From contig CAMUJH010000011.1 in the NCBI GenBank assembly GCA_947089145.1, positions 1 to 64,000 on the forward strand: DNA of 64,000 nt, given 5' to 3'. Under the pieces are notes generated by a model. The model did not search any database and was not told the origin of the DNA. It was given only the letters and a program-made list of their open reading frames with translations. The stretch comes from an uncultured Hungatella sp. Lineage in GTDB: Bacteria; Bacillota; Clostridia; Lachnospirales; Lachnospiraceae. The position numbers and the translations under genes are program-made. Below are positions 2,015 to 30,095 of the stretch, piece after piece (the stretch's first letter is position 1; every line of letters starts with the position of its first letter).

Positions 2015-2029
2015 TCTTACTACCTCCAT

Positions 2030-3775: not shown

Positions 3776-3800
3776 GTTACGCCTTTCTCATAAATTCGCC

Positions 3801-5663: not shown

Positions 5664-5718
5664 TTTTATTAACTCCCTTTGGGCATCCTGCGGTCAAAGC
5701 CATAAAGTCAGATAATGC

Positions 5719-7257: not shown

Positions 7258-7295
7258 AATTCAAACCTGCAGGAGATACTTCTTAGAGTAGATTA

Positions 7296-8459: not shown

Positions 8460-8501
8460 GCTTTTATCCTTTCATATTAGGCTAAACTAAATTCTATGAT
8501 A

Positions 8502-9755: not shown

Positions 9756-9815
9756 TACTAAACATTCCTTATACTATATACTTTGCACATAAATATCTGC
9801 TTTATTGATATAAAC

Positions 9816-10934: not shown

Positions 10935-10941
10935 AACGCTA

Positions 10942-12039: not shown

Positions 12040-12041
12040 GG

Positions 12042-14051: not shown

Positions 14052-14100
14052 TTACTTTCTCCTTCAAGGAAATGATACAGGCCACAAAATCCTGCCATAT

Positions 14101-14859: not shown

Positions 14860-14901
14860 ACCTGATATCTTAACCCCCGCAATAATGCATCTAAAGCTAT
14901 C

Positions 14902-15909: not shown

Positions 15910-15950
15910 TTTCTACCCTCATTATGTTTAGCCTGAAAATATTGTGCTCC

Positions 15951-16529
15951 TTAACCATGTGTATTCATAAACTTCTCCCAGCACCAATTCTCCAATTCTG
16001 TATTTACTTTTTCAGAAACAGGCCTTATTTTCTCGGAATACTCATCTTCATGTTTTCTTTTTTCAAGATATTCTTCGAATGTCTCGATAATTCTTGCTGG
16101 AATGCCAACCACTACGCTATTATCCGGGATATCATGTGCCACAACCGTACCCGCTCCAATAATCACATTCGATCCAATCCTCACATTATAATTGATACTT
16201 GTTCCTGCTCCGATAAAAACATTGTCACCAATCTCTATACAGCCCACTTTTTCATGGTACGGCTTACCCCCCCGTTTTGACAGAACATCCGGCATGTTGT
16301 TCAGCATCTGGTGAGTAATATCATGAGTGTTAAAATGAACATTGGAAGCAATCTGAACATTATTTCCAAGACTAATCAGTTTCGCATAAAGCGGGACTTT
16401 TCTATCCATTACAAGACAGTTATCCCCCATAGAATGAAAGATTTTCTTCTCTTTATAGTATTGTGTTCTCTTAGCGGCACTGAGGATCGTATACAGTTTT
16501 AGCGTCTGCCACATTCTTTGTCCACGCAT
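15951..16529 (-). CDS. Hexapeptide-repeat acyltransferase (left-handed beta-helix)
   Basis: A 192-residue protein with hexapeptide repeats from about residue 60 to 160 (I-G-D-N-V-F-I-G-A-G, I-G-S-N-V-I-I-G-A-G, then D-N-S-V-V-V-G-I-P-A-R-I), the xenobiotic/serine-type acetyltransferase pattern. It probably adds acetyl from acetyl-CoA to a sugar hydroxyl or amine of the locus. It follows the PIG-L deacetylase gene by 3 bases, so the pair may remove one acyl group and install another. The exact acceptor cannot be stated. Confidence 0.88.
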   Translation of the reverse strand: MRGQRMWQTLKLYTILSAAKRTQYYKEKKIFHSMGDNCLVMDRKVPLYAKLISLGNNVQIASNVHFNTHDITHQMLNNMPDVLSKRGGKPYHEKVGCIEIGDNVFIGAGTSINYNVRIGSNVIIGAGTVVAHDIPDNSVVVGIPARIIETFEEYLEKRKHEDEYSEKIRPVSEKVNTELENWCWEKFMNTHG

Positions 16530-16532
16530 ACC

Positions 16533-17222
16533 TTATCTCCTATACTCTCTTACAAGCACAAACGCCTCAGCCGCTCTGGCACCCATTGTGGAACCGCGAA
16601 GCCGGGCTAATGCCTCTGCTGCCTTCAAAGAACGCGGATTCGGAAACTCACAAATCTGTGTGGTAAAACAACTCATTGCCTCCAGCTTTTTATTCAGATA
16701 TGGTTCTATATCAATAAAAGTATTCGGTATAAAGGCATTGGACATATGGGGAATATTCCACTCTGTCTCTGACAGTGTTTCATAGGAATATACATATCTG
16801 ACAGTGCCTTTATACTTTGGCCGCACCGCAACCATCACTGCTTCTGACACAAGTGCATGGTCTCTCTGCATGTCTCCAAAGTGGGGAATAAAGATTACTT
16901 CCGGCATGATCTTTTGTACGACTTCATTTACTTTTCCATTTAGCTCATGCCTCGGAACAGTCTCAAGCATTACTGTTGGGAACTGGAGAAATAACGTCTC
17001 TTTGATTCCTAGCAGCTTATGCGCCTTCATGATATCCGGATATTGAATGTGCGGCCATCCATTTTCCTGTGCAATATTATAGTCACATTCATAGATAGGC
17101 GGAAATCCCTTTGTAACAACACATACATATGCATTGTTACCCTCAGCGATATATCTTGCCATGGTTCCTCCGCATCCCAAAACTTCATCGTCCGGGTGTG
17201 GGGCAAATACCAATACATTCAT
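16533..17222 (-). CDS. PIG-L family zinc-dependent deacetylase
   Basis: A 229-residue protein starting M-N-V-L-V-F-A-P-H-P-D-D-E-V-L-G-C-G-G, the zinc-binding H-P-D-D motif of LmbE/PIG-L N-deacetylases; the third metal ligand is probably H in F-G-D-M-Q-R-D-H near residue 120. Members remove N-acetyl groups from GlcNAc in lipids, bacillithiol precursors or antibiotics. Placed directly after the initiating sugar transferase gene, it may act on an early lipid-linked amino sugar. GGAG precedes the ATG. Confidence 0.92.
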   Translation of the reverse strand: MNVLVFAPHPDDEVLGCGGTMARYIAEGNNAYVCVVTKGFPPIYECDYNIAQENGWPHIQYPDIMKAHKLLGIKETLFLQFPTVMLETVPRHELNGKVNEVVQKIMPEVIFIPHFGDMQRDHALVSEAVMVAVRPKYKGTVRYVYSYETLSETEWNIPHMSNAFIPNTFIDIEPYLNKKLEAMSCFTTQICEFPNPRSLKAAEALARLRGSTMGARAAEAFVLVREYRR

Positions 17223-17228
17223 AATTCA

Positions 17229-17924
17229 TTACTCCAAGCTGTCAAAATGTTTACAGATTCCCAATTCATCTCTGCCTCTGGTCTCATCCAGGTTTTCTCC
17301 ATCAAAAGGCATCCGAGTATCACTGGCGCGATACTCGCTGCCCTTAAAAACTGCCCTTACAATTGCCAATGTCATTCTTACATCAGTAATAAAACTGATA
17401 TGCTCTATATACCAGATGTCATTTTCGAATTGTTCCCGCCATGTCCAAGTTTTGCTGTCAGACTTTGCGATCCGTTCCAGTGTAAGTCCCGGCCGCACAG
17501 CATGACGCATGGCGTGACGAGGAATGTAATACTGCATGTACTCAATTAGGAGCGGCCTTGGCCCAATAATGCTCATGTCGCCTTTTAAGATATTTATGAG
17601 CCCTGGCAACTCATCAATAGATGTCTTTCGAATAAAGCGGCCAAATTTAGTAAGCCTCTTTTCTTCCGGAAGCAGATAGCCATCATCCCCTCTCTCATTT
17701 GTCATGCTGCGGAACTTATACATATTGAAGATTTTTCCATCTTTTCCCGGTCTTTTTGTACAATAAATAATTGGTCTGCCATGAAAAATTAGTTCTGACA
17801 CGCTGATAATTAACATCAGAGGAGAAAGAACCATTAATGCCAAACCGCTGAGAATGACATCCAATAGACGTTTCACCACAACTGAGTAAAATGACTTTTT
17901 TACTTTTGGCAAGCTATTCTCCAT
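17229..17924 (-). CDS. Initiating sugar transferase (undecaprenyl-phosphate phosphoglycosyltransferase)
   Basis: A 231-residue monotopic phosphoglycosyltransferase: one membrane helix (K-R-L-L-D-V-I-L-S-G-L-A-L), then K-F-R-S-M, T-K-F-G-R-F-I-R-K-T-S-I-D-E-L-P and I-G-P-R-P-L. It loads the first sugar-1-phosphate on undecaprenyl phosphate, starting the Wzx/Wzy pathway. Size matches PglC-type enzymes rather than long WbaP forms. With an aminotransferase and NeuD-type acetyltransferases in the operon, the first sugar may be a modified dideoxy amino sugar; this is inference. Confidence 0.94.
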   Translation of the reverse strand: MENSLPKVKKSFYSVVVKRLLDVILSGLALMVLSPLMLIISVSELIFHGRPIIYCTKRPGKDGKIFNMYKFRSMTNERGDDGYLLPEEKRLTKFGRFIRKTSIDELPGLINILKGDMSIIGPRPLLIEYMQYYIPRHAMRHAVRPGLTLERIAKSDSKTWTWREQFENDIWYIEHISFITDVRMTLAIVRAVFKGSEYRASDTRMPFDGENLDETRGRDELGICKHFDSLE

Positions 17925-17942
17925 ACTCTCTGTTCCTTATAC

Positions 17943-18869
17943 TCAAAAAATATCTGAATCCATCATGGTTATATAGGATTTGGTAATATCCAATTTCTGA
18001 TCCCAAACTGTCATGGCAAAGGGATGTTCTCCATAGGTAAAATCGTTCTGTTCAAGAACATGACTGAAATGTTGGGAAGTAAGCCATAGTTTGACTTTCT
18101 TGCACTCCCAATTAAAAGCCGTGTTCATAGCAAACCTAAGCAGTTCTGCCATAACATCATCAGAATCTGCAATAATGTCCACGATCTGAAGCTGCTTAAC
18201 CTCATTTTCCGTATATGTATCTACGACAATGTATCCTTGTTTCTCAAATTCAAAACCTCTGTAATCGTATTCAGGCTTTTGGAAAAATCTCCAATCCATA
18301 AAGTCTTTTCGTCGGGTCTTGATAAATTCATGAGTTTTAGAAAGTTCCCGGCTTATCATCTCATATTCTGAACAGAAGGATCTAAACTCCTGGATCTTGT
18401 CAGATACCTTCATTTTTTGAGCTTTGGCAGTCCAGAAAGCAATATCTCCAGCATATTGGTGGCTAAGATACTTCACGGTAATGCCGTAGGAATGATGATT
18501 TGGAAAGCCGATAATAATATCAACATCCTCATTCTGCTTTGCACATTCGGTAAATAGCTGCAAAGAGCATCCTGGAAAATGTTCATCCGCCATGGTTGTC
18601 CCGCTTACAGCGGAAACCACTTCTTTTCCGTGAAAGAAAGCCGGATGGGGAGTTAAGGCATTATATGCAACCAGCGTGTCTCCTTCCCAGAGCGTAGTTG
18701 CCCGTTCTTTGAGGCAGGGATTGTTTTCCATCTGCCACTTAAGCATCTCAAAAGACACTGTTCTTCCGCCAAAAGCCTGAGAGAACAGCGCCTGTACTTT
18801 TTCAAGTTTATCTTTGGGATATGCTCCGACTTCATATTGAGGAAGTCTTAGCTCTTTTCTATTTCCCAT
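17943..18869 (-). CDS. GNAT-like N-acyltransferase
   Basis: About 308 residues resembling two-lobed GNAT proteins of polysaccharide loci (Q-A-F-G-G near 30, T-L-W-E-G-D-T-L-V-A-Y-N-A near 58, G-T-T-M-A-D-E-H-F-P near 90). It is a candidate for moving the acyl group made by the KAS III/ACP set onto the amino sugar. The start at 18869 is chosen because the upstream in-frame codon is TTG and GAGG sits properly before this ATG. It overlaps or abuts the VOC gene closely. Function is moderately supported, substrate unknown. Confidence 0.75.
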   Translation of the reverse strand: MGNRKELRLPQYEVGAYPKDKLEKVQALFSQAFGGRTVSFEMLKWQMENNPCLKERATTLWEGDTLVAYNALTPHPAFFHGKEVVSAVSGTTMADEHFPGCSLQLFTECAKQNEDVDIIIGFPNHHSYGITVKYLSHQYAGDIAFWTAKAQKMKVSDKIQEFRSFCSEYEMISRELSKTHEFIKTRRKDFMDWRFFQKPEYDYRGFEFEKQGYIVVDTYTENEVKQLQIVDIIADSDDVMAELLRFAMNTAFNWECKKVKLWLTSQHFSHVLEQNDFTYGEHPFAMTVWDQKLDITKSYITMMDSDIF

Positions 18870-18874
18870 ACCTG

Positions 18875-19261
18875 TCAATCCTCAACAATCTCAATTAATC
18901 CAACTGATAACGAATACATAAACACTACTCTCCTGTTGCCAAACCCTATTGCCTGAGCTAGCGGGATTGACACTTTAAATCTGCTTGCTTTCAGCTTTTC
19001 AATATCTGTCTCTATCTCAGCACTTTTATAGCAAATATGATATGGCGTCGGCCCGTTTTTAGACAGATACTTATCAACAGGAGAACTGTTTCCCATTGGT
19101 GCTATCAATTCAACTCGATATCCGTCCATCTCTCCGAAACAGATGTAAATGTTTCTATCCATATCCTTTACAATTGGCTCAAACGTATATCCAAGAGCTT
19201 CCATAGATGTCTTTGCTTTATTAATGTTTTTAACGGCATAGCCGATGTGATCGACTCTCAT
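18875..19261 (-). CDS. VOC-superfamily protein (methylmalonyl-CoA epimerase-like)
   Basis: A 128-residue single-domain vicinal oxygen chelate protein with D-H-I-G-Y-A-V-K-N-I at the N terminus, Y-R-V-E-L-I-A-P near 47, P-Y-H-I-C-Y near 72 and a terminal I-E-I-V-E, giving the usual His/Glu metal ligands. The size and motif spacing resemble methylmalonyl-CoA epimerase, which would fit a methyl-branched acyl pathway, but other VOC roles are possible. Its ATG overlaps the stop of the FkbH gene (ATGA), implying coupled translation. Confidence 0.85.
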   Translation of the reverse strand: MRVDHIGYAVKNINKAKTSMEALGYTFEPIVKDMDRNIYICFGEMDGYRVELIAPMGNSSPVDKYLSKNGPTPYHICYKSAEIETDIEKLKASRFKVSIPLAQAIGFGNRRVVFMYSLSVGLIEIVED

Positions 19262-20916
19262 GCCCAGTCCTCCACTAAGTCTTTAAAGATACCCGTTCCC
19301 GCCGGCAGGGCATCAACAGCAGCCATGTAATCTTTTCTGTCACCGATATTTTCAATTTTGCCTGATACAAGTGTGAATCCAAGCTTATCAAAGAGCTCAA
19401 GTACAGGTGTATTTTTTGCTGTTTTGATGTACACGCCTTTTATGGTTTTCACATCTTTGATTTTAAGAAACCCTCTGACTCTGGCCATAATCTCATCTTC
19501 GGCTTTTCTTCCCATTACGCGGCAAGACATCAGGAACGTATCAATTTCTGCCACATCGCCCTCATACTTTAGAATCATTATGGCTACCAGACCCTGGTCA
19601 CCATATTTATCTGCCATATGAACCGTAATTACATCTCCCAGTTCCGCCAGCTTATGTATTTCCTCCTCTGAGTATCTCTTCGTGGTCACATTGAACTGGT
19701 TGGTCTTATTCGTCAGCTGCGCAACACGTTTTTCTTCCTCGGGCTTCATCCGGTGGATCTCCATGGTCATTTCCAGCTTTTTCAGAAAATCTTCCACAGA
19801 TGCGGCAGCCGTCATCTCTGCCCTCCGCTGAATCTCTGCCCGATACATTGCTGTCTTTTTTCTATCCTCTCCTGTAATTTCCAGGGAAAGAAAATATTCA
19901 TCATATATTTGGGCTATTGTTTCAGGAAGCAATGAAGAATCTTTCGGAAACTCAATCACTGCTACTTCCGGACATTCTGCTTTCATCTGTTCACGTTCTG
20001 CCGGATTATCATCGAGAAATACGAACGAGTCTAAACCAATGTTTAAAGCTTTAGCAAGTTCCCGAATATTAGAACTCTTCGATGACCAGTTTATTGCCTC
20101 TCCTACAAAGTCTTCATGCCTAAGAACCATATCCGGATGATGGAACACCGGTTCAACATCATTTGCATTGTTCTTAGAAAGAATTGCCAGCATAACGCCC
20201 TGGTCTTTCATTTTCTTAAGAAGCCGTTGAGTATCTTTATACCGTGCTCCTTCTTTATTGTTCGCAAGAACGATCCCGTCAACTCCGTCTTCACCTATCA
20301 CGCCGCCCCAGAGGGTATTGTCAAGGTCAACTGCAAGACATTTCTTATGCATGCCTTTCGTTATGCCAACATACCTGACGATCAGATCATTAAGGGCAGA
20401 CAATCCCTTTATGGAATAGGGCATAGAGCCCATATACCACATCTTTGAAGCATAGAAATTATTCCTGCCCATATTGCTTATGAGATCCTTCACAGGCAGA
20501 ATATAAATAGTATTCCCAACCCTATATAGCCTCTCGACTTTCTCAATCAGGTAATTCTCCAAATAGTTATCCAGACGATGTTCAGCTCCATAGCGGCACT
20601 TAACATTGGAGATATCAATTGATGAGATAAAAACAGGAATGCCGGGAATAATGGTACACAAGGCCTGTACGGCTTTGCACCATTGGTCAATAGTTTTCTC
20701 TCCAATTCCTGCATCCTCCCATGTATCTGCATATGCGTTTGCATGAAGCAAAATCACCACTGCCTCCGGCTTGTATTCATATAGGCCAGATGTAGGCATA
20801 ATCACTTCTTGCTGCCAGGTATCAAATCCGGCAGAAAGATAAACCTCGTTGGTTTTCTGAATCATACCCGCAAGCAGGTCAACTGTTACATTTGATAATA
20901 GGGCAAGCCTCATCAT
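19258..20916 (-). CDS. FkbH-like HAD-IIIC family protein
   Basis: A 552-residue protein: N-terminal SGNH-like part (1-180), HAD domain with D-L-D-N-T-L-W-G-G-V at 197-206, then F-L-D-D-N-P-A-E-R-E, and a GNAT-like C-terminal part (about 400-550). FkbH proteins load 1,3-bisphosphoglycerate onto a carrier protein as glyceryl-ACP, as in tetronate and methoxymalonate pathways. Related genes also occur with KAS III and ACP genes in amino-sugar glycan islands. Its partner is probably one of the two adjacent carrier proteins. Whether it is a glyceryl loader here is inference. Confidence 0.9.
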   Translation of the reverse strand: MMRLALLSNVTVDLLAGMIQKTNEVYLSAGFDTWQQEVIMPTSGLYEYKPEAVVILLHANAYADTWEDAGIGEKTIDQWCKAVQALCTIIPGIPVFISSIDISNVKCRYGAEHRLDNYLENYLIEKVERLYRVGNTIYILPVKDLISNMGRNNFYASKMWYMGSMPYSIKGLSALNDLIVRYVGITKGMHKKCLAVDLDNTLWGGVIGEDGVDGIVLANNKEGARYKDTQRLLKKMKDQGVMLAILSKNNANDVEPVFHHPDMVLRHEDFVGEAINWSSKSSNIRELAKALNIGLDSFVFLDDNPAEREQMKAECPEVAVIEFPKDSSLLPETIAQIYDEYFLSLEITGEDRKKTAMYRAEIQRRAEMTAAASVEDFLKKLEMTMEIHRMKPEEEKRVAQLTNKTNQFNVTTKRYSEEEIHKLAELGDVITVHMADKYGDQGLVAIMILKYEGDVAEIDTFLMSCRVMGRKAEDEIMARVRGFLKIKDVKTIKGVYIKTAKNTPVLELFDKLGFTLVSGKIENIGDRKDYMAAVDALPAGTGIFKDLVEDWA

Positions 20917-20929
20917 ATATTCTCCAATC

Positions 20930-21010
20930 GTTCAACTACAGCATTTGCTCATATCTTATGGCATCAAGCACTCCGCTCCCAAGGAGCGTGCAATAGGGCG
21001 TGCCCTTTGG
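20930..21010 (-). other. Intra-operon hairpin pair
   Basis: The 118-base gap between the carrier protein gene and the FkbH gene contains two strong hairpins: CGCTCC-CAA-GGAGCG (20974-20988) and AGGGC-GT-GCCCT (20995-21006). Neither has a following U-run on the minus strand, so they are not ordinary terminators. They may modulate RNA stability, act as a LoaP-sensitive pause, or be a remnant palindromic repeat. Confidence 0.5.
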
Positions 21011-21034
21011 GTATAACTATCTAAGCTGTTATCA

Positions 21035-21250
21035 TTAAGTCTCTATATACTTGTAAAAATCTTTAAGCGTCTTGATACCTGGAATCTCCTCAATTGGAAT
21101 CTCCACATTATATTCCTCTTCGATTTCCATGACCATACGCATATGCATCAGTGAATCCCACTTTTCAATGGTTCCGTAAGCAGTATCTTCGGTCAGTGTC
21201 TCAGGATCAGTTTCCATGACACCTGCGATAAAATTAATAAAATCCTGCAT
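21035..21250 (-). CDS. Acyl carrier protein
   Basis: A 71-residue acidic carrier protein with W-D-S-L-M-H-M; Ser33 is the phosphopantetheine site. The W-D-S-L form is typical of carrier proteins paired with FkbH and discrete KAS III enzymes. It lies between the ketoreductase gene and the FkbH gene, 10 bases after the former, and is a good candidate for the glyceryl or ketoacyl carrier. GAGG precedes the ATG. Confidence 0.92.
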   Translation of the reverse strand: MQDFINFIAGVMETDPETLTEDTAYGTIEKWDSLMHMRMVMEIEEEYNVEIPIEEIPGIKTLKDFYKYIET

Positions 21251-21260
21251 ACTCCATACC

Positions 21261-22001
21261 TCATACTTTCCTCACAGCGTGTCCACCGTCTGCCGTGATA
21301 ATCTGTCCATTAATCCATCGGGCATGTTCTGACAGGAGGAAGCAGATAAGATTCGATGCATCCTCCACCTGGCCAATGCCCAGAGGATAGCTTTCCAACA
21401 GTTTCTGCATTTCTTTGTCTGTAAGCTTATCCATCCACCCTGCTGCCATGGGAGTTTTTATAGGAGCAAAGCAAACCTCATTGATCCGGATTCCTTTTTC
21501 CATCAGTTCTGCTGCGGCCGGAGCAAGATAGCCCTCCATAGCTCCCTTGGCGGCCGCATATGCCGTGTGTCCCATAGCACCCTCATGCGCAGACTGAGAT
21601 GTGATCAAAACAATGCTGGTTTTCTCACCATGATTCTTCTTTTTACTGATGGCCGCTATCATGACCATAGGAACCAATGCATGGATTTTCCAAAGATTCT
21701 CAATATCCTCAATCTTAGCCAGGTGCAAAGGAACCATCTTATCAAATCCAGCACAATGAATAAATCCTCCAATAGGGCCATACTCAGCCACAAGATTTTT
21801 TATCAAATCACCAAGGCTTCCCACGTCCATAAGATCAGCTTCATGCAGCGCCATCTGGCCCGGATATTTATCTGCTGTTTCTTTTATTCCATCTCCAAGA
21901 ATGCGATCAATTCCGATAACTGCAGCTCCCGAAGATAATAATTTTTCTGCTACCGCTTTTCCTATGCCGCCTGATACGCCGGTAATCAATACATTCTTCA
22001 T
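21261..22001 (-). CDS. Short-chain dehydrogenase/reductase (FabG-like ketoreductase)
   Basis: About 246 residues of classical SDR type: T-G-V-S-G-G-I-G near the N terminus for NAD(P), a catalytic serine in L-I-T-S-Q-S, and Y-A-A-A-K as the Tyr/Lys pair, ending with a W-I-N-G-Q-I-I-T-A-D-G-G region typical of FabG. It would reduce the beta-ketoacyl-ACP made by the KAS III enzyme to a 3-hydroxyacyl-ACP. The start is taken at 22001, whose ATG overlaps the stop of the preceding carrier gene (ATGA). Confidence 0.92.
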   Translation of the reverse strand: MKNVLITGVSGGIGKAVAEKLLSSGAAVIGIDRILGDGIKETADKYPGQMALHEADLMDVGSLGDLIKNLVAEYGPIGGFIHCAGFDKMVPLHLAKIEDIENLWKIHALVPMVMIAAISKKKNHGEKTSIVLITSQSAHEGAMGHTAYAAAKGAMEGYLAPAAAELMEKGIRINEVCFAPIKTPMAAGWMDKLTDKEMQKLLESYPLGIGQVEDASNLICFLLSEHARWINGQIITADGGHAVRKV

Positions 22002-22219
22002 TCTTTCACACATTTTTTATACAGGTCTCCAACCGTTTTACACTCCAGGAATTCCTCCACTGGAACCCGGACATTGTACTCATCTTCCATCATAACGATT
22101 AATGAAAACCCCATAAGTGAACTGAAATCCTCAATTTCTTCACGAAAAACGGTATCCATCGTGATATCATCTGGCTCAGTTTCAAAAACCTCGGCTGTCA
22201 ATTCCAAAAACTTTTCCAT
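21998..22219 (-). CDS. Second acyl carrier protein with atypical S-S-L motif
   Basis: A 73-residue acidic protein of carrier-protein fold. Aligned with the neighbouring carrier protein (W-D-S-L-M), it reads F-S-S-L-M: Ser34 aligns with the phosphopantetheine serine but the preceding Asp is replaced by Ser. That Asp usually contacts the phosphopantetheinyl transferase, so loading may need a special partner. It lies between the KAS III and ketoreductase genes and is translationally coupled to the latter. AGGAGAG precedes the ATG. Confidence 0.85.
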   Translation of the reverse strand: MEKFLELTAEVFETEPDDITMDTVFREEIEDFSSLMGFSLIVMMEDEYNVRVPVEEFLECKTVGDLYKKCVKE

Positions 22220-22262
22220 TTCGCATCTCTCCTATTTACTAATCCGTATTTCTGATAACTGC

Positions 22263-23339
22263 TTATTGATTTTTTCCTTTATACTGAAAGAACTTGTAAT
22301 ACGCATTGGGATCTAATGTAATAATCCCTGCGCTTGCTGAAAGCCCGCCGCCAAAACCAGAAATGAGTACACGGTTAGTCTTCTCCTTATCCAGCACCCT
22401 CTCCGCATCAAATGCAATCGTAACCGGAACCGTGGCTGATGCTGAATTGCCCACTGCATCTCCGGACTGCCATGTGCTTTTCTCCCAATCGAATTTCAGC
22501 TTTCTTGCCAGCTTTTTGATCATATACATGTTAGCCTGATGCGGAACAAAGGAATCAATTGTCTTAGCAGACTCTTTCGTTTCACCAAGGAACCTGAGCA
22601 GCCACTTGGATACATCACTGGCAACAAAACGGAAGATTGCAAAGCCATCCATATAAATATCTATGTTTCTTCTTTTTCCGTCATCTTCAAAGTCTCTATA
22701 CTCCAAATCTTCTGCTTTAACAGGGCTTGCAGATCCGGCCGCCGGAATCATCAGGGAGGTTCTGCCTGTACCGTCCGTATAGAATGTGAACATCCACTCA
22801 GTTTCCGTATTATCGAAAGACACGAGAGTAGCAGATCCGGCGTCTGCCATAACAGGCACAGTGGATTTGTCGTATGGGCTCATGTATGCGCTTTGAATAT
22901 CGCCGTCAAGCAGCATCACCTTCTTGCCGCTTGCTTTTGCAAATGTAGAAGCCACATAAAGACCATATGCATAGCCAGAGCATGCCAGACTGATGTCAAA
23001 TGACGGTATCTCTTTGGAAAGCCCTAATTTATCCTGCACAATCCCTGCATTAAACGGCATCAGCTTATCTGGCGTAAAAGTTACGAAGATAACTGCACCT
23101 ATATCCTCTACTGCTGTTTTGGTTCCCTTCATAAGTTTCTCCGCACAGGCAATGCATAGATCCGATGAAGATGTTCCAGGATTCGCAAGATATCTTGTTC
23201 TGATTCCGGTTGACTCCATAATGAGCTTCGCTTCATCGCCATACATTTCGCCAAGCGAGGTCTCATTATCAATTTTGTTTTCCGGTACGCAGGAAACTAC
23301 CCCGTCAATGTGAATACCTCTAATCTTGAATATTTCCAT
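22263..23339 (-). CDS. 3-oxoacyl-ACP synthase III (KAS III/FabH family)
   Basis: A 358-residue thiolase-fold enzyme with Cys120 in S-L-A-C-S-G-Y-A, His in V-P-H-Q-A-N and Asn in V-G-N-S-A-S-A-T, the complete Cys-His-Asn set. It should condense an acyl-CoA primer with malonyl- (or methylmalonyl-) ACP. I choose the internal Met start (23339) because GGGAG lies before it; the longer frame to 23393 overlaps the malonyltransferase gene and has no good ribosome site. Together with the two carrier proteins and the ketoreductase it can form a short 3-hydroxyacyl chain. Confidence 0.93.
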   Translation of the reverse strand: MEIFKIRGIHIDGVVSCVPENKIDNETSLGEMYGDEAKLIMESTGIRTRYLANPGTSSSDLCIACAEKLMKGTKTAVEDIGAVIFVTFTPDKLMPFNAGIVQDKLGLSKEIPSFDISLACSGYAYGLYVASTFAKASGKKVMLLDGDIQSAYMSPYDKSTVPVMADAGSATLVSFDNTETEWMFTFYTDGTGRTSLMIPAAGSASPVKAEDLEYRDFEDDGKRRNIDIYMDGFAIFRFVASDVSKWLLRFLGETKESAKTIDSFVPHQANMYMIKKLARKLKFDWEKSTWQSGDAVGNSASATVPVTIAFDAERVLDKEKTNRVLISGFGGGLSASAGIITLDPNAYYKFFQYKGKNQ

Positions 23340-23371
23340 GTTCTTCTCCCTTTGACCCTTTTCGCATGATT

Positions 23372-24241
23372 TTATATTACTAAACCGACACATTTAGGCC
23401 GGAAGGTTATTGTCTTATTCATCTTCTTCAAAACATCACCATAGCCTACTTCATAAAGTCTTGACACTCCTGCATTTTTCATTGCAAGAATCGTATCGTA
23501 CCATCTTACCTGACCCGTTATCTGGGCTATAAGGTTCGTCTTTATCTCAGCTAGGTCCGTTGTTGGCTTGCCTGTCACATTACATATAACACTGCACACT
23601 GGTTTTTTGAGTTCCGTGTTCTCGATCACTCCCTTCATAATTTCAGCTGCCCTAGCCATCTGAGGGCTATGAAAAGCCGCACTTACACGGAGCTTTTTAA
23701 ATTTCACCCAATCCTTGCCTGCCAGCTTATGACCCACAGCATCCACACCAGCCTCCGTGCCTGATATGACAATTTGTGTTTTCGAGTTCAGGTTCGCCAT
23801 TACAACATCCGAATTCAGGTATTGAATCAATTCTTCCTCCTTAAGTCCCATCACAGCAGCCATTGTGCCTTTTCCGTTCATCTGGCTCATAGCTTCACCG
23901 CGGGCAGACACCAGTTTTAATCCTGTTTCAAAATTAAATACACCGGCTGCAAGCAAGGCATCATATTCACCAAGGCTGTGGCCGGCAACATAATCATAAA
24001 GCAGCCCATCGGACTTAATTTTTTCCAAATACATGGCGGAACAGGTATAGATTGCCGGTTGAGCATACCTTGTATCCGTAAGTTGTTCTTGCGCTCCCTC
24101 AAACATTAGCTTTTTCAGATCGTAGCCAAGCACCTGATTTGCCCTATCCGGCAATACTGCTGCATTTGGCAGCTTCTCATATAATTCTTTGCCCATTCCC
24201 ACAATCTGCGAGCCTTGCCCGGGGAATATTAAACCGTTCAT
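23372..24241 (-). CDS. ACP S-malonyltransferase (FabD family)
   Basis: A 289-residue acyltransferase with G-Q-G-S-Q near the N terminus, catalytic Ser89 in G-H-S-L-G-E-Y, and A-A-F-H-S-P-Q-M holding the active-site His near 193. It loads malonyl or methylmalonyl from CoA onto a carrier protein. As a second FabD-like gene inside a polysaccharide operon it is likely dedicated to the local carrier proteins instead of bulk fatty-acid synthesis. GGAGG precedes the ATG. Confidence 0.93.
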   Translation of the reverse strand: MNGLIFPGQGSQIVGMGKELYEKLPNAAVLPDRANQVLGYDLKKLMFEGAQEQLTDTRYAQPAIYTCSAMYLEKIKSDGLLYDYVAGHSLGEYDALLAAGVFNFETGLKLVSARGEAMSQMNGKGTMAAVMGLKEEELIQYLNSDVVMANLNSKTQIVISGTEAGVDAVGHKLAGKDWVKFKKLRVSAAFHSPQMARAAEIMKGVIENTELKKPVCSVICNVTGKPTTDLAEIKTNLIAQITGQVRWYDTILAMKNAGVSRLYEVGYGDVLKKMNKTITFRPKCVGLVI

Positions 24242-24257
24242 CTAATATCCTCCATTC

Positions 24258-24899
24258 TCATAATCTCAAACTTGTGGCTGGAACTCCCATTACGCTTACA
24301 CCGTCTCTTATATTTCGGATAACTACTGAGCCAGCGCCTACTTTCGAGTAATTACCAATCTTCTTTCCAGGTAAAACAGTAGAATTCGAGCCAAAGTATG
24401 CCCCTTCTCCTATCTGCACATGCCCTGAAATCACAGTACCGGACATAAAAGATGCATAATCTTCAACCTTGCAATCATGGCCAACTGTTGTTCCAAGGTT
24501 CATTATGCATTGATTGCCAACTATGGTATTCACACTTATATTGCAGTTAGCACATATAATGCAGCCATGGCCAAGCCTTGATGCATCAGAAATATTAGCC
24601 GATGGATGGATCAAAGTTTCCCACTGTGAAAAATCAGGAAACATTTCTACAAATTTTTTCCTGAATCTGCTATCTTGTGCCGCAATGACTGCCCATATAT
24701 TATGATTCTCATTTAAAACCATAAGATCCCTAATTGATCCCAAACATTCATATCCGTTATATGACTGTCCTATTTTTTTAGAGTCATCATCAAGGAAGCC
24801 TATCATCTCATATGTCGGATTTTTTTTATTAATATTCTCGATAAGCCAGGCTACTTCTCTCCCAAAATCACCGGCGCATAATATTATAATTTTTTTCAT
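24258..24899 (-). CDS. NeuD/PglD-like sugar O/N-acyltransferase, copy 1
   Basis: A 213-residue protein: a Rossmann-like N-terminal half (I-I-I-L-C-A-G-D-F-G-R-E-V) and a left-handed beta-helix C-terminal half (G-H-G-C-I-I-C-A, V-G-H-D-C-K-V, G-A-Y-F-G-S-N-S-T-V-L-P-G-K-K-I-G). This is the NeuD/PglD layout, which acylates amino sugars, e.g. the C4 amine of a dideoxysugar. It lies beside a second copy encoded at 24927-25571; the pair might use different acyl donors. Confidence 0.9.
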   Translation of the reverse strand: MKKIIILCAGDFGREVAWLIENINKKNPTYEMIGFLDDDSKKIGQSYNGYECLGSIRDLMVLNENHNIWAVIAAQDSRFRKKFVEMFPDFSQWETLIHPSANISDASRLGHGCIICANCNISVNTIVGNQCIMNLGTTVGHDCKVEDYASFMSGTVISGHVQIGEGAYFGSNSTVLPGKKIGNYSKVGAGSVVIRNIRDGVSVMGVPATSLRL

Positions 24900-24926
24900 G
24901 GCGTACCCTGCCGGATGAATGCCGTT

Positions 24927-25571
24927 TTACTTAAACAGTGAAAAGCCACTGCCCTTCTCGCTGACTTCGGCATCATCACAATAGTCTCTGTGTGCTGTTG
25001 CTTCTACTCCAATCTCTACCCTATTTCCAAGCTTCTTATGAGGGTATACTGTACTTCCTGCTCCCAGGAAACATTCATGGCCAATCTCCGCACGCTCCGA
25101 TACGGAAGCACCTGACATAATCGATACATAATTTCCAATCTTGCAATCATTGCAGATCGTTGATTGGATGTAAAAGATATCAAAGTTGCCTAGTTTGGCA
25201 TCCACAGAAATTGTCACCTGTGGGAACACGATGCTCCCCTTACCCACAGGACTCGTTCCGGCAATCACAGCAGTAGGATGGACTATGGATTCCCATGAAT
25301 AAAAATCTTTATGCTCCTCTGTAATCTTCTTTCGGATGCTTCCATCCTGTATAGCGATTACCGCAGCTAATGGAGTTCTCCGGTTAATTTCTTCAAGCTG
25401 AGATGGTTTTCCTAACACCTTATATCCATAAAACTCACCGCCGGCCTTGTCTGCATCATCATCCAGAAACCCAAGGATAAGATAAGTCGGACAATGTTTG
25501 TTGATATCCTCTATCAGCCACACAACCTCTTTGCCCAGATCACCTGCTCCGATTATCACAATATTTTTCAT
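24927..25571 (-). CDS. NeuD/PglD-like sugar O/N-acyltransferase, copy 2
   Basis: A 214-residue paralogue of the neighbouring protein (I-V-I-I-G-A-G-D-L-G-K-E-V-V-W-L-I at the N terminus, then beta-helix repeats with I-S-V-D-A-K-L-G-N and G-A-G-S-T-V-Y-P-H-K-K-L-G). In the position of the catalytic His of PglD this copy reads C-N-D-C where copy 1 has V-G-H-D-C, so it may lack the usual catalytic base or use another mechanism. Likely role: acyl transfer to an amino sugar or acting as a partner of copy 1. Confidence 0.85.
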   Translation of the reverse strand: MKNIVIIGAGDLGKEVVWLIEDINKHCPTYLILGFLDDDADKAGGEFYGYKVLGKPSQLEEINRRTPLAAVIAIQDGSIRKKITEEHKDFYSWESIVHPTAVIAGTSPVGKGSIVFPQVTISVDAKLGNFDIFYIQSTICNDCKIGNYVSIMSGASVSERAEIGHECFLGAGSTVYPHKKLGNRVEIGVEATAHRDYCDDAEVSEKGSGFSLFK

Positions 25572-25620
25572 ACCGCAATTCTCCTTCTACTGCTATGCTC
25601 TTTTCCAACAGAAGAACCTG

Positions 25621-27219
25621 TTACAGCGGAATATTCCCGTGAACATATGACAACTCGCTGCGTTCCTTAGCACTTAGGCTCTCAAACGCAGTTCTTATCT
25701 TTCGTCTGGTTTCTTCCGGACTTATCACTTCATCAATTATTCCGAGTTTCGCAGCAATATACGGAGACATAAATTTATGGTTATATTCGGCAATTTTCTC
25801 TGCCCTGACAGTCTCCTTATTTTTGGCATCCTCAAGCTCATGCTTATACATAATTCCAACTGCACCCTCTGCACCCATAACGGCTATTTCTGCGATAGGC
25901 CAGGCATAAACAATGTCTGCTCCCATCCCTTTGCTGTTCATAGCAATGTATGCCCCGCCATAGGCTTTGCGAAGGATCAAGCTTACCTTTGGAACCGACG
26001 CTTCACAATATGCGTAAAGAAGTTTTGCCCCGCGCCTTATAATACCGCTATGCTCCATTTTACTTCCCGGCATGAAGCCAGGAACATCTATCAGAGTTAA
26101 CAGCGGTATTCCATAACAGTCACAGCATCGAACAAAACGTGCTGCTTTTTCGCCTGAGTCAATATCAAGAGAGCCGCCTAACCAAACCGGATTTGATGCA
26201 ACAATACCCACAACCTCTGAATCTATACGACAGTATCCAATCACAATGCTTCTTCCAAAGTCCTTGTGAATTTCAAAGAAACTGCCTTCATCTACAAATG
26301 TATCAATGACTTTGTGTATATCATATCCCCGTCTCTGGTTGTCTGTAACAATCTCCTGTAACTGATCCGAGCAATCTCTAGCCTTTCCTATTATGCGCAT
26401 TGGTTTTTCCCGATGGTTTTTTGGTAAATAGGATAGGAGTTTCTTAATTCCATCTAAACATTCATATTCAGATGCATAATGAAAATGTGCTACCCCGCTC
26501 ATGGAACTGTGAGCCTCTGCCCCTCCAAGCTCTTCCGTAGTAATATCCTCACCCATTACGGTCTTAACTACAGCCGGACCTGTAAGGAACATCTGGCTGG
26601 TCTTTTCCACCATGAAAACATAGTCACACAATGCAGGACCATAGCATGCACCGCCGGCACAGGGGCCCATAACCACCGCTATCTGCGGAATCTTCCCACT
26701 TGCTCTTGTATGGCGGAGGAACATGTCTCCATAACCATCTAAGCCGCTGATTCCCTCTTCCATACGTGCGCCGCCGGAATCATTCATTGTGATAAACGGC
26801 GCTTTGGACCGGAATGCCATGTCCATTATTCGGACTATTTTTTTGCTGTGGTATTCCCCATATGTACCTCCCATAACTGTAAAATCTTCCGCAGCCACAT
26901 ACACAGGCACGCTGTTAATTGTTCCGAATCCAGTCACAACACCATCGCCTGGAAGCTTCTTTTTATCCATGCCAAAATCCGTAAATCGGGATTCTATAAG
27001 AGATCCGACTTCCTGGAAGGAGCCGGGATCAAACAGATAGTCGATTCGCTCCCATACAGTTAGCTTTCCTTTGCCATGCTGGGCCTGTATTCTCTTTACA
27101 CCGCCACCGGCTTTTGCCTTAGCACGTTTGGAATTTAATTCCTCTATATACTTTTGATTCCACATACAGTCTGCCTTTTCACGCTTACCACCTGTTTTCA
27201 ATTTCCTTTTCTTGTTCAC
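25621..27219 (-). CDS. Acyl-CoA carboxylase carboxyltransferase (PCC/ACC beta type)
   Basis: Up to 532 residues with crotonase-fold carboxyltransferase signatures: N-D-S-G-G-A-R-M-E-E-G, G-P-C-A-G-G-A-C-Y, L-I-D-V-P-G-F-M-P-G and G-G-A-Y-I-A-M. It should transfer carboxyl from biotin to acetyl- or propionyl-CoA, supplying malonyl- or methylmalonyl-CoA to the nearby acyl-building set. No biotin carboxylase or biotin carrier gene is seen here, so it must share them. The start is unsure: a GTG (27219) abuts the upstream stop, while homologues usually begin at the Met at 27165 (M-W-N-Q-K-Y). Confidence 0.92.
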   Translation of the reverse strand: MNKKRKLKTGGKREKADCMWNQKYIEELNSKRAKAKAGGGVKRIQAQHGKGKLTVWERIDYLFDPGSFQEVGSLIESRFTDFGMDKKKLPGDGVVTGFGTINSVPVYVAAEDFTVMGGTYGEYHSKKIVRIMDMAFRSKAPFITMNDSGGARMEEGISGLDGYGDMFLRHTRASGKIPQIAVVMGPCAGGACYGPALCDYVFMVEKTSQMFLTGPAVVKTVMGEDITTEELGGAEAHSSMSGVAHFHYASEYECLDGIKKLLSYLPKNHREKPMRIIGKARDCSDQLQEIVTDNQRRGYDIHKVIDTFVDEGSFFEIHKDFGRSIVIGYCRIDSEVVGIVASNPVWLGGSLDIDSGEKAARFVRCCDCYGIPLLTLIDVPGFMPGSKMEHSGIIRRGAKLLYAYCEASVPKVSLILRKAYGGAYIAMNSKGMGADIVYAWPIAEIAVMGAEGAVGIMYKHELEDAKNKETVRAEKIAEYNHKFMSPYIAAKLGIIDEVISPEETRRKIRTAFESLSAKERSELSYVHGNIPL

Positions 27220-28539
27220 TTAACTGGTTTTGAAGCACCTATGGATAATCTCAATAATCCTGTCCTGCTGTTCTCTGGTCATTTTGTTATCGGATGGCAG
27301 GCACAAACCCCGCCGGAAAATATCAGCACCCACATCCACGGCCCCGGTCTCTTTGATATAAGCATTACTCTGCGCTCTGCCGTTACCATTCCTAGTTATA
27401 AAGGGGTGCATTCTATAAATCGGCTGCATATGCATCGGCTTCCATATCGGCCTTCCCTCAGCATTAAAAGCTGTTAAAGCATCCAATATCTCATGGGGAC
27501 AGCTCTTTCCCGGCTCCGTTTTATACAAATAATCTTGCTCTCCGCAAACACTCATGCACATTGCATCGGTATTTATAATCATGCAAGACACCCAAAAATT
27601 GGGAATACTGTGTTCTTCATCGTATGGATTCATAGAAACCGGTAAATCCTTAAGCCCTTCTTTATACCGCTCGTAAATCGCTTTTTTTGCTTCCAAATGC
27701 TCCTCCAAGTATGGAATTTGGCCACGAACAATGCCAGCTATAATATTGGACATCCGATAGTTGTACCCAATCTCCTCATGCTGATACCATGGAGCGGCCT
27801 CACGGCTCTGTGTAGACCATTTCCGAACCTTGTCCGCATCTTCGCGACTATCCGTTAGAAATATTCCGCCGCTGCTGCCTGTGATAATTTTATTGCCATT
27901 AAATGATATACAGTTGTAGTTCCCAAGCGTTCCGGTCTCTGCCCACCGGCCATTCAGCTTATACTTAGCTCCCAGAGATTCTGCGGCATCTTCCACAATC
28001 AATGCACCGTGTTCATCGGCAATCCTTTTAATCTCTTCCATGCGCCCCGGCGTACCGTAAAGATGCGCTATGATAATCAGGCGCACATCAGGATATAAGT
28101 TGAACGCTTCAGATAATGCCACAGGGTCCATATTCCAAGTCTGATCTTCTGTGTCGATAAACACAGCCTCTCCGTTTTCGTAGGAAACAGGGTTAATGGT
28201 TGCATTGAAGGTCATGTCAGAGCAAAAAACTTTCTTTCCTGTCAATGTACCAGCATTCGGCCGTGCCTGGCCGTAAAGCCGTTCGCCAGCCAGCCTGGCA
28301 GCCATGTGCAATGCAGCGGTGCCGGCAGACAGAGCTACGGCATACCTGCAGTCCATGTACTTTGCCATCAGGTGTTCAACCTCATTGATATTTGCACCGA
28401 TCGTTGAAACCCAGTTAGTCTGGATGGCCTCGTCAACCCATTTCTGCTCATCGCCATGCATAGTGGGACTGGACAGCCACACTTTTGATTCGAACGGTTT
28501 AATTCCTGCAAATCTCGGATCATTTATAAAATCGTACAT
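27220..28539 (-). CDS. DegT/DnrJ/EryC1/StrS-family sugar aminotransferase
   Basis: About 439 residues of PLP-dependent sugar aminotransferase: S-A-G-T-A-A-L-H near 75, V-E-D-A-A-E-S-L-G-A, and F-N-G-N-K-I-I-T-G with the PLP lysine. It converts a nucleotide-linked keto sugar to an amino sugar (PglE/VioA/WbpE type), the probable acceptor for the acyl group made by neighbouring genes. GGAG lies before the ATG at 28539, which I prefer over the ATG at 28575 that overlaps the upstream stop. The 4,6-dehydratase that would supply the keto sugar is not in the window. Confidence 0.92.
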   Translation of the reverse strand: MYDFINDPRFAGIKPFESKVWLSSPTMHGDEQKWVDEAIQTNWVSTIGANINEVEHLMAKYMDCRYAVALSAGTAALHMAARLAGERLYGQARPNAGTLTGKKVFCSDMTFNATINPVSYENGEAVFIDTEDQTWNMDPVALSEAFNLYPDVRLIIIAHLYGTPGRMEEIKRIADEHGALIVEDAAESLGAKYKLNGRWAETGTLGNYNCISFNGNKIITGSSGGIFLTDSREDADKVRKWSTQSREAAPWYQHEEIGYNYRMSNIIAGIVRGQIPYLEEHLEAKKAIYERYKEGLKDLPVSMNPYDEEHSIPNFWVSCMIINTDAMCMSVCGEQDYLYKTEPGKSCPHEILDALTAFNAEGRPIWKPMHMQPIYRMHPFITRNGNGRAQSNAYIKETGAVDVGADIFRRGLCLPSDNKMTREQQDRIIEIIHRCFKTS

Positions 28540-28571
28540 CTCTTTCTCTCCATATGATTTAGATTCGGGAA

Positions 28572-29090
28572 TCATTTCCTAACCATCCCCACCATCTCAA
28601 TCCCCATCTTCAATTCCATCTTTCTTCCCATAAATTCCACCTGAACCACCACTTCCCTTTTATGCAGATTTCTTTTAACTATATCTCCTACATAACCCTT
28701 CAGCGGCCCGTCAAGCACCTCTATCTGCTTCCCTTCCCCTGCCAATACTTTGGACAAAACGGTTTTATGTTCCTGATTTCCAATACTTTCAATTAACTTC
28801 TTTTCTTTTTCACCTAATGCAATAAAATAATCTGTCTCTCTGCCCAACACCTTTGTCAATTTTGGAACCTGTTTCAATTCCTCATACAGTTCCTCCGGTC
28901 TATCCGAAATTACAAATGCATATCCCTGAAACAATACTTCCTCTACCTTATTCCATCTGCCCTCAAATTTCTTCAGTCTTTCCCTCTTCGGAACAAAACA
29001 TTCTTGAATAAGGTCTGGCGTAACCATTCTCCTGATCATATCAGCTGTTTTTTCTTCCTGTCCGCCAAGGGTCTGTATGACATACCACAT
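28572..29090 (-). CDS. loaP: LoaP-like processive antiterminator (NusG family)
   Basis: About 172 residues starting M-W-Y-V-I-Q-T-L-G-G, with an N-terminal NGN domain (F-V-P-K-R-E-R, L-F-Q-G-Y-A-F-V at about 60-70) and a C-terminal KOW segment (G-P-L-K-G-Y-V-G-D-I-V). LoaP proteins are NusG paralogues that let RNA polymerase read through terminators in long polysaccharide and polyketide operons of Firmicutes. The gene lies at the head of a roughly 29-kb operon. I use the ATG at 29090, with GGAG upstream, instead of a GTG at 29123. Confidence 0.88.
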   Translation of the reverse strand: MWYVIQTLGGQEEKTADMIRRMVTPDLIQECFVPKRERLKKFEGRWNKVEEVLFQGYAFVISDRPEELYEELKQVPKLTKVLGRETDYFIALGEKEKKLIESIGNQEHKTVLSKVLAGEGKQIEVLDGPLKGYVGDIVKRNLHKREVVVQVEFMGRKMELKMGIEMVGMVRK

Positions 29091-29177
29091 ATCCGTCTCT
29101 CCACTCTGCCATTTTGAGCCCACAGTGTTTTTCCAAATTCAAGTACCCGTCTCCCATTTTGGGCAGGCTTCGCCATT

Positions 29178-29201
29178 CCGCAGCAATAAACTACACTGCG
29201 G
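29178..29201 (-). promoter_or_regulatory. Candidate leader hairpin between the two NusG-family genes
   Basis: CCGCAG and CTGCGG pair across a 12-base loop on the minus-strand transcript in the 193-base gap between the two antiterminator genes. LoaP is known to recognise an RNA hairpin in the 5' leader of its target operon, and this is a possible site. No U-run follows, so it is not a simple terminator. The rest of the gap holds no gene that I can support. Confidence 0.4.
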
Positions 29202-29315
29202 CTCCGCTCTGCCAATATGACCATGAGAACCCAATTCCTGTGCCAATGCTTCAGCAATTCCATCCTCAATCCTGATTCATTCTTTTATTTCTTCTTTTAT
29301 CTGTTCTCGTTTTCT

Positions 29316-29810
29316 TTATATCTCTTTCTCATAAATCTCCAACCCCACCGTTATCTGCTTTCGGCTTCCGGCAAGAGGAATCTCGATCTCCGCCGTCCTT
29401 TTATGCCGGTCGATTTTCCGTATCAGATATTCCCGGTCTTTCAGCGGCCCGCTAGTTACAACGGTAGCCCCGTTTCTTATAACTCCCCTGGATATTCCAA
29501 TAAGGGTACCATTGTCACACAGTTCCTTTAGATAGGGAATCTCACAGGGTGTCAAGGAGACTTCTCTGTTTTGTTTTGACCTCCCCTGCCGTCCTCCCTT
29601 CATCAGCACATTGGTTCCGGATACAAAAATACAGCCTGGCAAAGCCATCCTTTTCTCCAGATGCCACGTTCCGCCGTAACGCATCATACGCTGATACTGA
29701 AAGCATAGAATCTCTTCTGTTTCCCTCGACTCTACAAGCTCCAGATGTCCATCCAGGTAATCCGTCTCATTTCCCGCCTTACATTTCAGCAGATACCAGA
29801 TTTTCCTCAT
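29316..29810 (-). CDS. NusG-family transcription antiterminator (second LoaP-like paralogue)
   Basis: A 164-residue divergent NusG-type protein: N-terminal R-K-I-W-Y-L-L-K-C-K-A-G-N-E, M-A-L-P-G-C-I-F-V near 58 (NGN domain) and a KOW-like V-V-T-S-G-P-L-K-D-R-E-Y near 118. It is the first gene after the invertible region and lies upstream of a second NusG paralogue, an unusual tandem. It may start antitermination in the leader while the next one sustains it, or the two may act at different sites. AAGGGAG lies immediately before the ATG, closer than usual. Confidence 0.8.
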   Translation of the reverse strand: MRKIWYLLKCKAGNETDYLDGHLELVESRETEEILCFQYQRMMRYGGTWHLEKRMALPGCIFVSGTNVLMKGGRQGRSKQNREVSLTPCEIPYLKELCDNGTLIGISRGVIRNGATVVTSGPLKDREYLIRKIDRHKRTAEIEIPLAGSRKQITVGLEIYEKEI

Positions 29811-29834: not shown

Positions 29835-29863
29835 CTGCCGCTTAATTATCAGTTAAGCGACAC
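29835..29863. repeat. Inverted repeat left copy (candidate recombinase site)
   Basis: A dyad of two arms (29835-29845 and 29853-29863, TTAAGCGACAC on the right) around a 7-bp core TTATCAG. The outer arm differs from the ideal at two positions. Bases 29839-29863 are a perfect 25-bp reverse complement of 30044-30068. Two inverted arms around a 6-8-bp asymmetric core is the usual form of a tyrosine-recombinase site. Confidence 0.9.
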
Positions 29864-30043
29864 CTAAATAAAATTATGCGGGTATAATCATCAGAAATTT
29901 TATTAAATTTGTTTTATTTTTGTGAATTATTATGGAATTGCAGAAACAAAATAGCAAATTGCTCCTGTTGACACTGGTCAGAATTAATGATATAATCGAA
30001 CTCGTTATAGAAAATTAGCTTTTTGGGTAATTATAAATGGAAA
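29864..30043. promoter_or_regulatory. Candidate invertible promoter segment (180 bp)
   Basis: AT-rich, no gene, enclosed by the 25-bp inverted repeats. It contains an exact consensus promoter on the plus strand (listed separately) and a weaker minus-strand candidate (TTGCTA 29952-29957, 17 bp, CATAAT 29929-29934). Recombination between the repeats would flip the strong promoter to face the polysaccharide operon, with its start near 29904, about 94 bases before the first gene. The arrangement is seen; that it inverts is inference. Confidence 0.8.
29968..29996 (+). promoter_or_regulatory. Perfect consensus sigma-A promoter, pointing away from the polysaccharide operon
   Basis: TTGACA at 29968-29973, a 17-bp spacer, and TATAAT at 29991-29996, all matching consensus exactly; start expected near 30003. 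In this orientation it reads right, directly into the right inverted repeat, which with its T-run forms a terminator. No plus-strand gene lies close downstream, so its orientation makes sense only as the OFF state of an invertible switch. Confidence 0.85.
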
Positions 30044-30078
30044 GTGTCGCTTAACTGATAATTAAGCGACACTTTTTT
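30044..30078 (+). terminator. Inverted repeat right copy doubling as intrinsic terminator
   Basis: A perfect dyad: GTGTCGCTTAA (30044-30054), core CTGATAA, TTAAGCGACAC (30062-30072), followed by six T residues at 30073-30078. It has both the form of a recombinase site and that of a rho-independent terminator for the rightward transcript. The T-run lies outside the repeat, so it would stay in place after inversion. Confidence 0.85.
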
Positions 30079-30095
30079 GCACTCTGAGCCAAAAA

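Follow-up and report, generated by a model that had tools for sequence, protein, structure and literature searches.

The window, a 64,000-nucleotide stretch of a contig from an uncultured Hungatella sp., carries on its minus strand a long run of polysaccharide-type genes headed by two genes of the LoaP/NusG family, with a short segment enclosed by an inverted repeat in front of them (Table 1). The run encodes an aminotransferase, a sugar transferase, LicD and Stealth proteins, PEP mutase/nucleotidyltransferase, a pyruvyl transferase, a flippase-like protein and others, a gene content that supports the polysaccharide operon proposed in an earlier sequence-only reading of this DNA. Positions 9816-14051 (minus strand) encode a PEP mutase fused to nucleotidyltransferases, a TPP enzyme and an iron alcohol dehydrogenase, and the predicted functions of these genes suggest a phosphonate-decorated polysaccharide. 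LoaP2 also matched the UpxY model at 64.3 bits, under the cut-off of 100; LoaP1 matched the LoaP model only.

Table 1. Features of the cassette and the adjoining gene run, in window positions.
Feature	Position	Strand	Description
Polysaccharide-type gene run	509..28575	-	putative operon, from gene direction and spacing
loaP2, LoaP antiterminator	28572..29123	-	NCBIfam LoaP, 146.6 bits, above the cut-off of 125
Conserved structured RNA between loaP1 and loaP2	29141..29275	-	covariation
loaP1, divergent NusG/LoaP paralog, first operon gene	29316..29810	-	NCBIfam LoaP, 97.1 bits, below the cut-off of 125
loaP-proximal recombination arm	29835..29863	.	CTGCCGCTTAA-TTATCAG-TTAAGCGACAC
Invertible segment	29864..30043	.	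180 bp; homologous segments occur in opposite orientation
Sigma-70-type promoter, exact	29968..29996	+	TTGACA-17-TATAAT, reads away from operon (OFF)
Outer recombination arm	30044..30072	.	perfect palindrome GTGTCGCTTAA-CTGATAA-TTAAGCGACAC, then TTTTTT outward

The sequence-only reading had described an invertible promoter caught in the OFF orientation, and its description of the DNA proved accurate. The perfect 25-bp inverted repeat (29839-29863 and 30044-30068, 180 nt between the arms) extends to 33 nt at 94% identity (29831-29863 and 30044-30076), and 500 dinucleotide shuffles of 28801-31000 yielded no perfect repeat at 60-400 nt spacing longer than 14 bp. The promoter between the arms (TTGACA at 29968-29973, TATAAT at 29991-29996) is the only exact consensus promoter with 16-18 nt spacing on either strand of the 64 kb, and it points away from the operon as had been claimed. 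No plus-strand gene stands close downstream of it, again in agreement with that reading: the nearest likely genes, loaP1 and a GNAT gene at 30339-30983, are both on the minus strand, and the plus-strand ORFs near the segment overlap one or the other. Flipping the segment would put the –10 box 100 nt from the annotated ATG at 29810: 47 nt up to the proximal arm, 29 nt of arm and a final 24 nt. Given a transcription start 7 nt past the –10 box, the leader would be ~93 nt, close to the ~94 bases first estimated.

The same reading had named a weaker minus-strand promoter candidate, TTGCTA-17-CATAAT, through which OFF might mean low expression. This sequence exists, with 3 mismatches in 12, but does not stand out from shuffles. 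The best opposite-strand match in the window segment had 2 mismatches, a value that 14 of 100 shuffles also reached. In 31 related segments, the best matches on the opposite strand averaged 3.48 mismatches vs 3.27 in base shuffles, and the main promoter averaged 0.23 mismatches in 12. A weak minus-strand OFF promoter was therefore rejected as no better than shuffles, leaving low expression through a second promoter without support.

Each arm is a palindrome around a spacer of 6-7 nt, with the form GTGTCGCTTAA-N7-TTAAGCGACAC in the outer arm. We scanned 80 loaP loci, kept out of 199 relatives, with a pattern that fixed the spacer at 7 nt, and obtained 51 arm pairs, 9 single arms and 20 loci with none; 19 of the pairs have no orientation call. 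Partners were picked on half-sites alone, and their spacers were identical, in inverted orientation, in all 51. The arms fall into class A, the type in the window (16 pairs, 15 distinct spacers), and class B, TCGTAGAG-N7-CTCTACGA and variants (35 pairs, 23 distinct spacers). A second set of 31 class-A two-arm loci, which overlaps with the 16 pairs of the scan, contained 22 distinct spacers; here spacer mismatch entered the choice of pairs, so the unbiased figure for spacer identity is that of the scan. Thirty-two loci had been entered in this set, and one (L202) was dropped because it had no arm pair passing the regular expression. The cassette on contig C71 of the window's own genome (G000) has a 6-nt spacer, identical in both arms. 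Paired inverted sites, inverted half-sites around a spacer of 6-8 nt and identical partner spacers, the marks of a tyrosine-recombinase inverton, were all found, and the rule of spacer identity fits tyrosine recombination. Some spacers are shared between loci, namely those of C20 and the start of C63, of C2 and the end of C31, and, in genome G402, of C10 and C11, so that exchange between loci is possible.

The two arms differ in the hairpins they can form. The outer half-site of the proximal arm deviates, and a weaker hairpin is thus expected in the ON transcript. In the 31 class-A loci, the outer hairpin read outward had a mean of –18.1 kcal/mol, compared to –11.9 for the proximal hairpin modelled in the ON transcript, and it was the stabler of the two in 31 of 31 (Wilcoxon P ~1e-6). 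The ten bases after the arm contained more T on the outer side in 27 loci, equal numbers in 3 and fewer in 1 (5-8 T after the outer arm vs 0-6 after the proximal arm). As judged from these predicted structures, the outer arm combines a recombination site with a terminator-like hairpin, which suggests that the promoter is insulated by the outer arm when OFF and is not insulated when ON.

A DNA search of the window's own genome with the cassette gave 24 matches, and those of cassette length include C20, C63, C2, C23, C19, C49 and C71. The exact arm palindrome occurred at ten places and the reversed control at zero. Eight of the ten are complete cassettes, all eight OFF; at the ends of C63 and C31 the contig includes the outer arm alone, and C51 carries the loaP side of the C63 end. 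The DNA search matched the cassette in 5 of 26 genus genomes, the window's own included, and the exact long arm pattern, searched across 397 genomes of the family, occurred in the window's genome alone. Arms positioned before loaP1 are conserved across species. Relatives that carry such cassettes include strain 1XD21-70 (class A) and Claveliimonas bilis c-25 (class B).

The inverted arrangement that an invertible promoter predicts was found on looking through related genomes. Among the 31 class-A two-arm loci, the promoter pointed towards loaP1 (ON) in L088 (genome G419) and L091 (G399), and the other 29 were OFF. Two further loci, L202 (class A, outside the 31) and L218 (class B), were also ON, and L165 has an ON arrangement at a contig edge, read from its sequence. 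The 35 class-B pairs comprised 16 OFF, 1 ON and 18 without a call. Alignments of L088 with L009, L091 with L090, and L202 with L217 were collinear outside the segment and inverted inside. The collections hold one genome per species, and both orientations are accordingly seen between homologous loci, which is short of proof for one locus in two strains. The window's own locus was seen OFF, as the sequence-only reading had it, and mixed orientation in this genome is indicated indirectly, by contig ends. The strong dominance of OFF could alternatively mean that flipping is rare.

The contig ends lie where reads of the two orientations would part. Contigs C33 and C49 share an overlap of exactly 55 bp that stops at the proximal arm's inner edge, the point at which the OFF and flipped sequences would diverge. 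C63 starts exactly 55 nt before the base that separates OFF (A) from ON (G, seen in C51), and C31 starts at the corresponding place, with its ON base deduced since no loaP-side partner contig was found. Such ends would be the expected residue of a 55-mer assembly graph, with the k-mer size deduced from the ends, if both orientations had been read. Across the 80 loaP loci, 6 contig ends fell within 400 bp upstream of loaP1 vs 0.9 expected from the next 3.6 kb (P ~0.0003; the 6 include L226, which has no arm), and 2 fell within 400 bp downstream.

We searched for enzymes that might act on these sites. The window's own genome has 18 tyrosine-recombinase family matches, 17 above the cut-off, and three recombinases, all of the tyrosine family, were profiled across genomes. 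The best candidates are encoded at C1:48879-49841 and, by a paralog 67% alike, at C12:2479-3414. Relatives at 65% identity or more (clade A) were present in 8 of 8 genomes with class-A arms, among them the window's own. Of the 21 arm-negative genus genomes one, G400, has such a relative, and of 14 other genomes none does. Proteins 47-64% alike to one from Claveliimonas bilis (clade B) were present in 10 of 11 genomes with class-B arms (that of the query included) and 0 of 12 others, one of which (G435) has a single class-B-like arm. The exceptions in clade B are Drancourtella, at 47%, and Mordavella, which has class-B-like arms and a best recombinase at 34%. The single arm-negative genome with a clade-A recombinase (73% identity) is 73% complete, and its search for arms gave 3 matches vs 4 in the reversed control. 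In a tree of 36 extracted proteins, from which L244 (20 residues, with a stop) was left out, 11 class-A rows, one of them from arm-less G400, joined at 100/100 and 7 class-B rows joined separately at 100/100; other rows from class-B genomes, their best matches to the clade-A query, fell outside both clades. The two arm classes thus likely track two tyrosine-recombinase clades, with exceptions, in a co-occurrence that is confounded by kinship, uses identity thresholds set after seeing the table and draws on a sample including 17 genomes picked from those behind the 80 loaP loci.

The neighbourhoods of the candidate recombinases are common to several species, and no arms were found within their ~1.5 kb flanks. 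The C. bilis recombinase and loaP locus are apparently on one chromosome, at ~1.15 Mb and ~2.22 Mb respectively. Because the candidates are not adjacent to the cassettes, the enzyme would act in trans. Two tyrosine recombinases are encoded in tandem elsewhere in the window's own genome, at C66:4803-6536. We rejected this pair as the invertase, since relatives of its first member at 55% or more occur in 22 of 26 genus genomes, 17 of which are arm-negative; two further matches stood at 31-34%.

Downstream of loaP1, the intergenic RNA was aligned from 26 sequences over 29 pairs, with 97.2% of cells paired. Thirteen pairs changed on both sides vs 5.5 in shuffles, and 0 of 500 shuffles scored as high, a control that leaves relatedness in. 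Taken singly, the window RNA has no folding advantage over its shuffles (z –1.11; 21 of 200 shuffles were as good). Searching the window's own genome with the RNA model returned 8 copies, each by loaP1 and all in the training set, and no further copy. In 67 sources, mostly class-B and arm-less loci, it gave 37 matches at E ≤1 from 36 sources, many of them weak. We examined 33 of these (the 37 minus the window, L078 and two in L215), and 33 of 33 lay just upstream of a loaP gene, 26 of them between two loaP genes. Class-B intergenic stretches could be aligned, at the level of sequence, around common motifs. A known RNA family was rejected, as Rfam gave no match at 29141..29275; its sole hit in 28000-31000, with E allowed up to 5, scored 16 bits and lay elsewhere. 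A UNCG hairpin was likewise rejected as the LoaP target here for lack of conservation: none with a stem of at least 5 was found in the window region, and such hairpins occurred in isolation, at different places, in 4 of 16 loci.

The start of loaP1 is unusual. At the NusG-type start position (ATG TGG TA), 66 arm-bearing loaP1 genes had ATC in 51, ATT in 6 and ATG in 9, and 21 arm-less ones had ATG in 16, GTG in 2 and ATC, ATT and CTG in 1 each; arm labels were set by hand, with single-arm loci, L172 and L178 taken as arm-bearing, L189 (a pair in the spacer scan) and L206, L162 and L238 (single arm-like matches) counted as arm-less, and L226 left out. The ATC/ATT pattern was seen in loaP1 of L160-L236. 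In 18 of the 57 ATC/ATT genes, the stretch back to the upstream stop contains no in-frame ATG, GTG or TTG. A Shine-Dalgarno-like stretch ends 7-9 nt before the ATC/ATT codon in 50 of 57. As a control, 48 of 57 loaP2 genes from these operons carry ATG TGG. Two observations count against an AUC/AUU start: a standard start lies three codons upstream in 29 of 57, and in 6 of the 18 genes without an upstream start one follows 3-4 codons downstream. In the window the upstream start is the one at 29810, which is in contact with the Shine-Dalgarno stretch, and in C71 a stop codon takes its place. The candidate codon in the window is ATC at 29801-29799 (minus strand). loaP1 likely initiates at AUC, and across the loci it may start at AUC or AUU. 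AUU initiation has a precedent in infC.

Taken together, we read 29864-30043 as an inverton, flipped by a tyrosine recombinase encoded elsewhere, that switches the loaP/polysaccharide operon, and we give this explanation as a whole a probability of nearly 0.9. The recombinase (C1:48879-49841 or its C12 paralog) would bind both palindromic arms and exchange strands inside the 7-nt spacer. Because this spacer is asymmetric and is identical, inverted, in both arms, the product would be a flip, and because spacers mostly differ between loci, each cassette would recombine mostly with itself. In the OFF orientation, as here, the promoter would fire outward, and its transcript would probably be stopped at the outer-arm hairpin and T-tract. 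In the ON orientation, transcription would pass through the proximal arm, the weaker of the two hairpins, and continue into loaP1, the RNA element and loaP2 and then the long polysaccharide operon, where LoaP-type antitermination would carry polymerase to the operon end. Catalysis by the candidate recombinases and termination at the outer arm are the predicted steps of this scheme, as are the roles of the two LoaPs and the RNA and a phenotypic switching of the polysaccharide.

The inversion could be real and its catalyst another recombinase, such as XerC/D, a phage-type integrase or a serine invertase. The 18 tyrosine-family matches, from a search confined to that family, include further possible enzymes, and the distance of the candidates from the cassettes also leaves room for them; however, the spacer-identity rule fits tyrosine enzymes, the two arm classes match two recombinase clades, with exceptions, and the wide spread of the first C66 tandem gene into arm-negative genomes speaks against that pair, and so we consider a different catalyst unlikely. 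It is quite improbable, in our judgement, that the arms mainly serve exchange between loci, which would rearrange the chromosome and bring different operons under a promoter, as in Eggerthella lenta, whose loaP-linked capsule clusters are described in the part of PMC13174815 consulted. The shared spacers noted above would allow this, but most spacers differ, and complete cassettes have their inverted partner ~130-200 bp away with the promoter between.

We rejected a fixed promoter that never inverts and makes an RNA of ~75 nt, ending at the outer-arm hairpin and acting on the operon leader. Such an RNA would account for the OFF state of 29 of 31 class-A loci and for a T-tract behind the outer hairpin. 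Against it stand ON copies in at least four genomes and contigs that break at, or 55 nt before, the OFF/ON divergence, and it leaves the identity of inverted spacers (51 of 51) unexplained; we see only a slim chance for it. That a mobile element left the repeat behind as an inert relic seems scarcely credible: elements with integrase or integrase-like genes do lie in or beside two cassettes (described below), but the position before loaP1 is conserved across species, the promoter has kept its near-consensus sequence and the arms are asymmetric.

An inverton under a remote tyrosine recombinase looks like a clostridial counterpart of the Bacteroides capsule switches. In the Mpi and UpxY/UpxZ capsule system of Bacteroides fragilis, several polysaccharide operons per genome lie behind invertible promoters, with the NusG paralog UpxY near the promoter and one master recombinase, Mpi, serving many sites (PMC5903667, PMC7819879 and PMC11892184, in part); RecV and Mpi are treated in the first of these and LoaP and UpxY in the second. 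Mpi is a serine recombinase, whereas the sites and candidates here are of tyrosine type with mostly locus-specific spacers, and the NusG paralogs here are LoaP-type, usually two, with a structured RNA between them, in another phylum. Clostridioides difficile RecV, with its Cdi sites, is a clostridial tyrosine recombinase that inverts several sites (PMC5903667, in part); by the description in that part, its named targets are cwpV and flagella. Passages of PMC11892184 link UpxY genes to invertons in Bacteroidota and report new repeat motifs in Clostridia-like genomes, and some of the repeats here may already be in its supplementary lists.

Bacillus velezensis LoaP is of the same protein family. 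According to the part of PMC12691694 consulted, loaP genes often adjoin secondary-metabolite or polysaccharide operons and a UNCG hairpin recruits LoaP, whereas that hairpin is rare here and not conserved in place, and the RNA found here is larger and different; a term search of the paper's text found nothing on promoter inversion. Closest is the E. lenta preprint (PMC13174815, in part), in which loaP-linked capsule clusters are switched by inversion at short repeats; those inversions span ~2 Mb, at a 16-bp repeat that has no recombinase next to it, in contrast to the 180-bp local cassettes here. One open library, as far as its texts were covered, yielded no paper on loaP-linked promoter cassettes, and these megabase inversions were the nearest case.

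As read from genome sequence, the system would be promoter inversion before NusG-paralog polysaccharide operons, a known kind of switch, here in clostridia and at addressed sites of tyrosine type. We tentatively propose, as one joint claim and with more doubt than confidence, that gut clostridia independently evolved an addressed switchboard in which one or two dedicated tyrosine recombinases per lineage read 7-nt tags and about ten polysaccharide promoters flip independently. Each promoter would feed a module of loaP1 (AUC/AUU start), the new RNA and then loaP2, and the poorly initiated LoaP1 together with the RNA would impose a threshold that limits how many polysaccharides are produced at the same time. 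If true, phase-variable surface polysaccharides governed by a NusG paralog would not be special to Bacteroides and would have a separate origin in gut clostridia, with different recombinase chemistry. The consequences would extend to phage resistance, immune recognition and differences between strains in little-studied gut bacteria, and the system would provide recombinases that seem to use a 7-nt address, along with a new RNA element and a conserved start codon of an unusual kind.

Some loci depart from the usual layout. In G402, class-A arms precede loaP genes ~30% alike to loaP1 (L078 and L080-L083), so that arms and loaP type can be shuffled. Upstream of position 4001 in L162, a loaP1 relative has one imperfect arm-like match and other sequence at the cassette position. 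An element with an integrase-like gene, identified by eye, seems to interrupt one cassette in G402 (L086, 5196-6709; L077, 5392-5700), and the two halves of the cassette keep the same spacer. On C70 of the window's own genome (L020, 10452-11814), past a polysaccharide operon, a tyrosine integrase gene has a half-arm next to it, and this half-arm carries the C49 spacer. We rejected this integrase as the invertase, as it looks like that of a mobile element beside a damaged site; the element may have used a switch site for its insertion.
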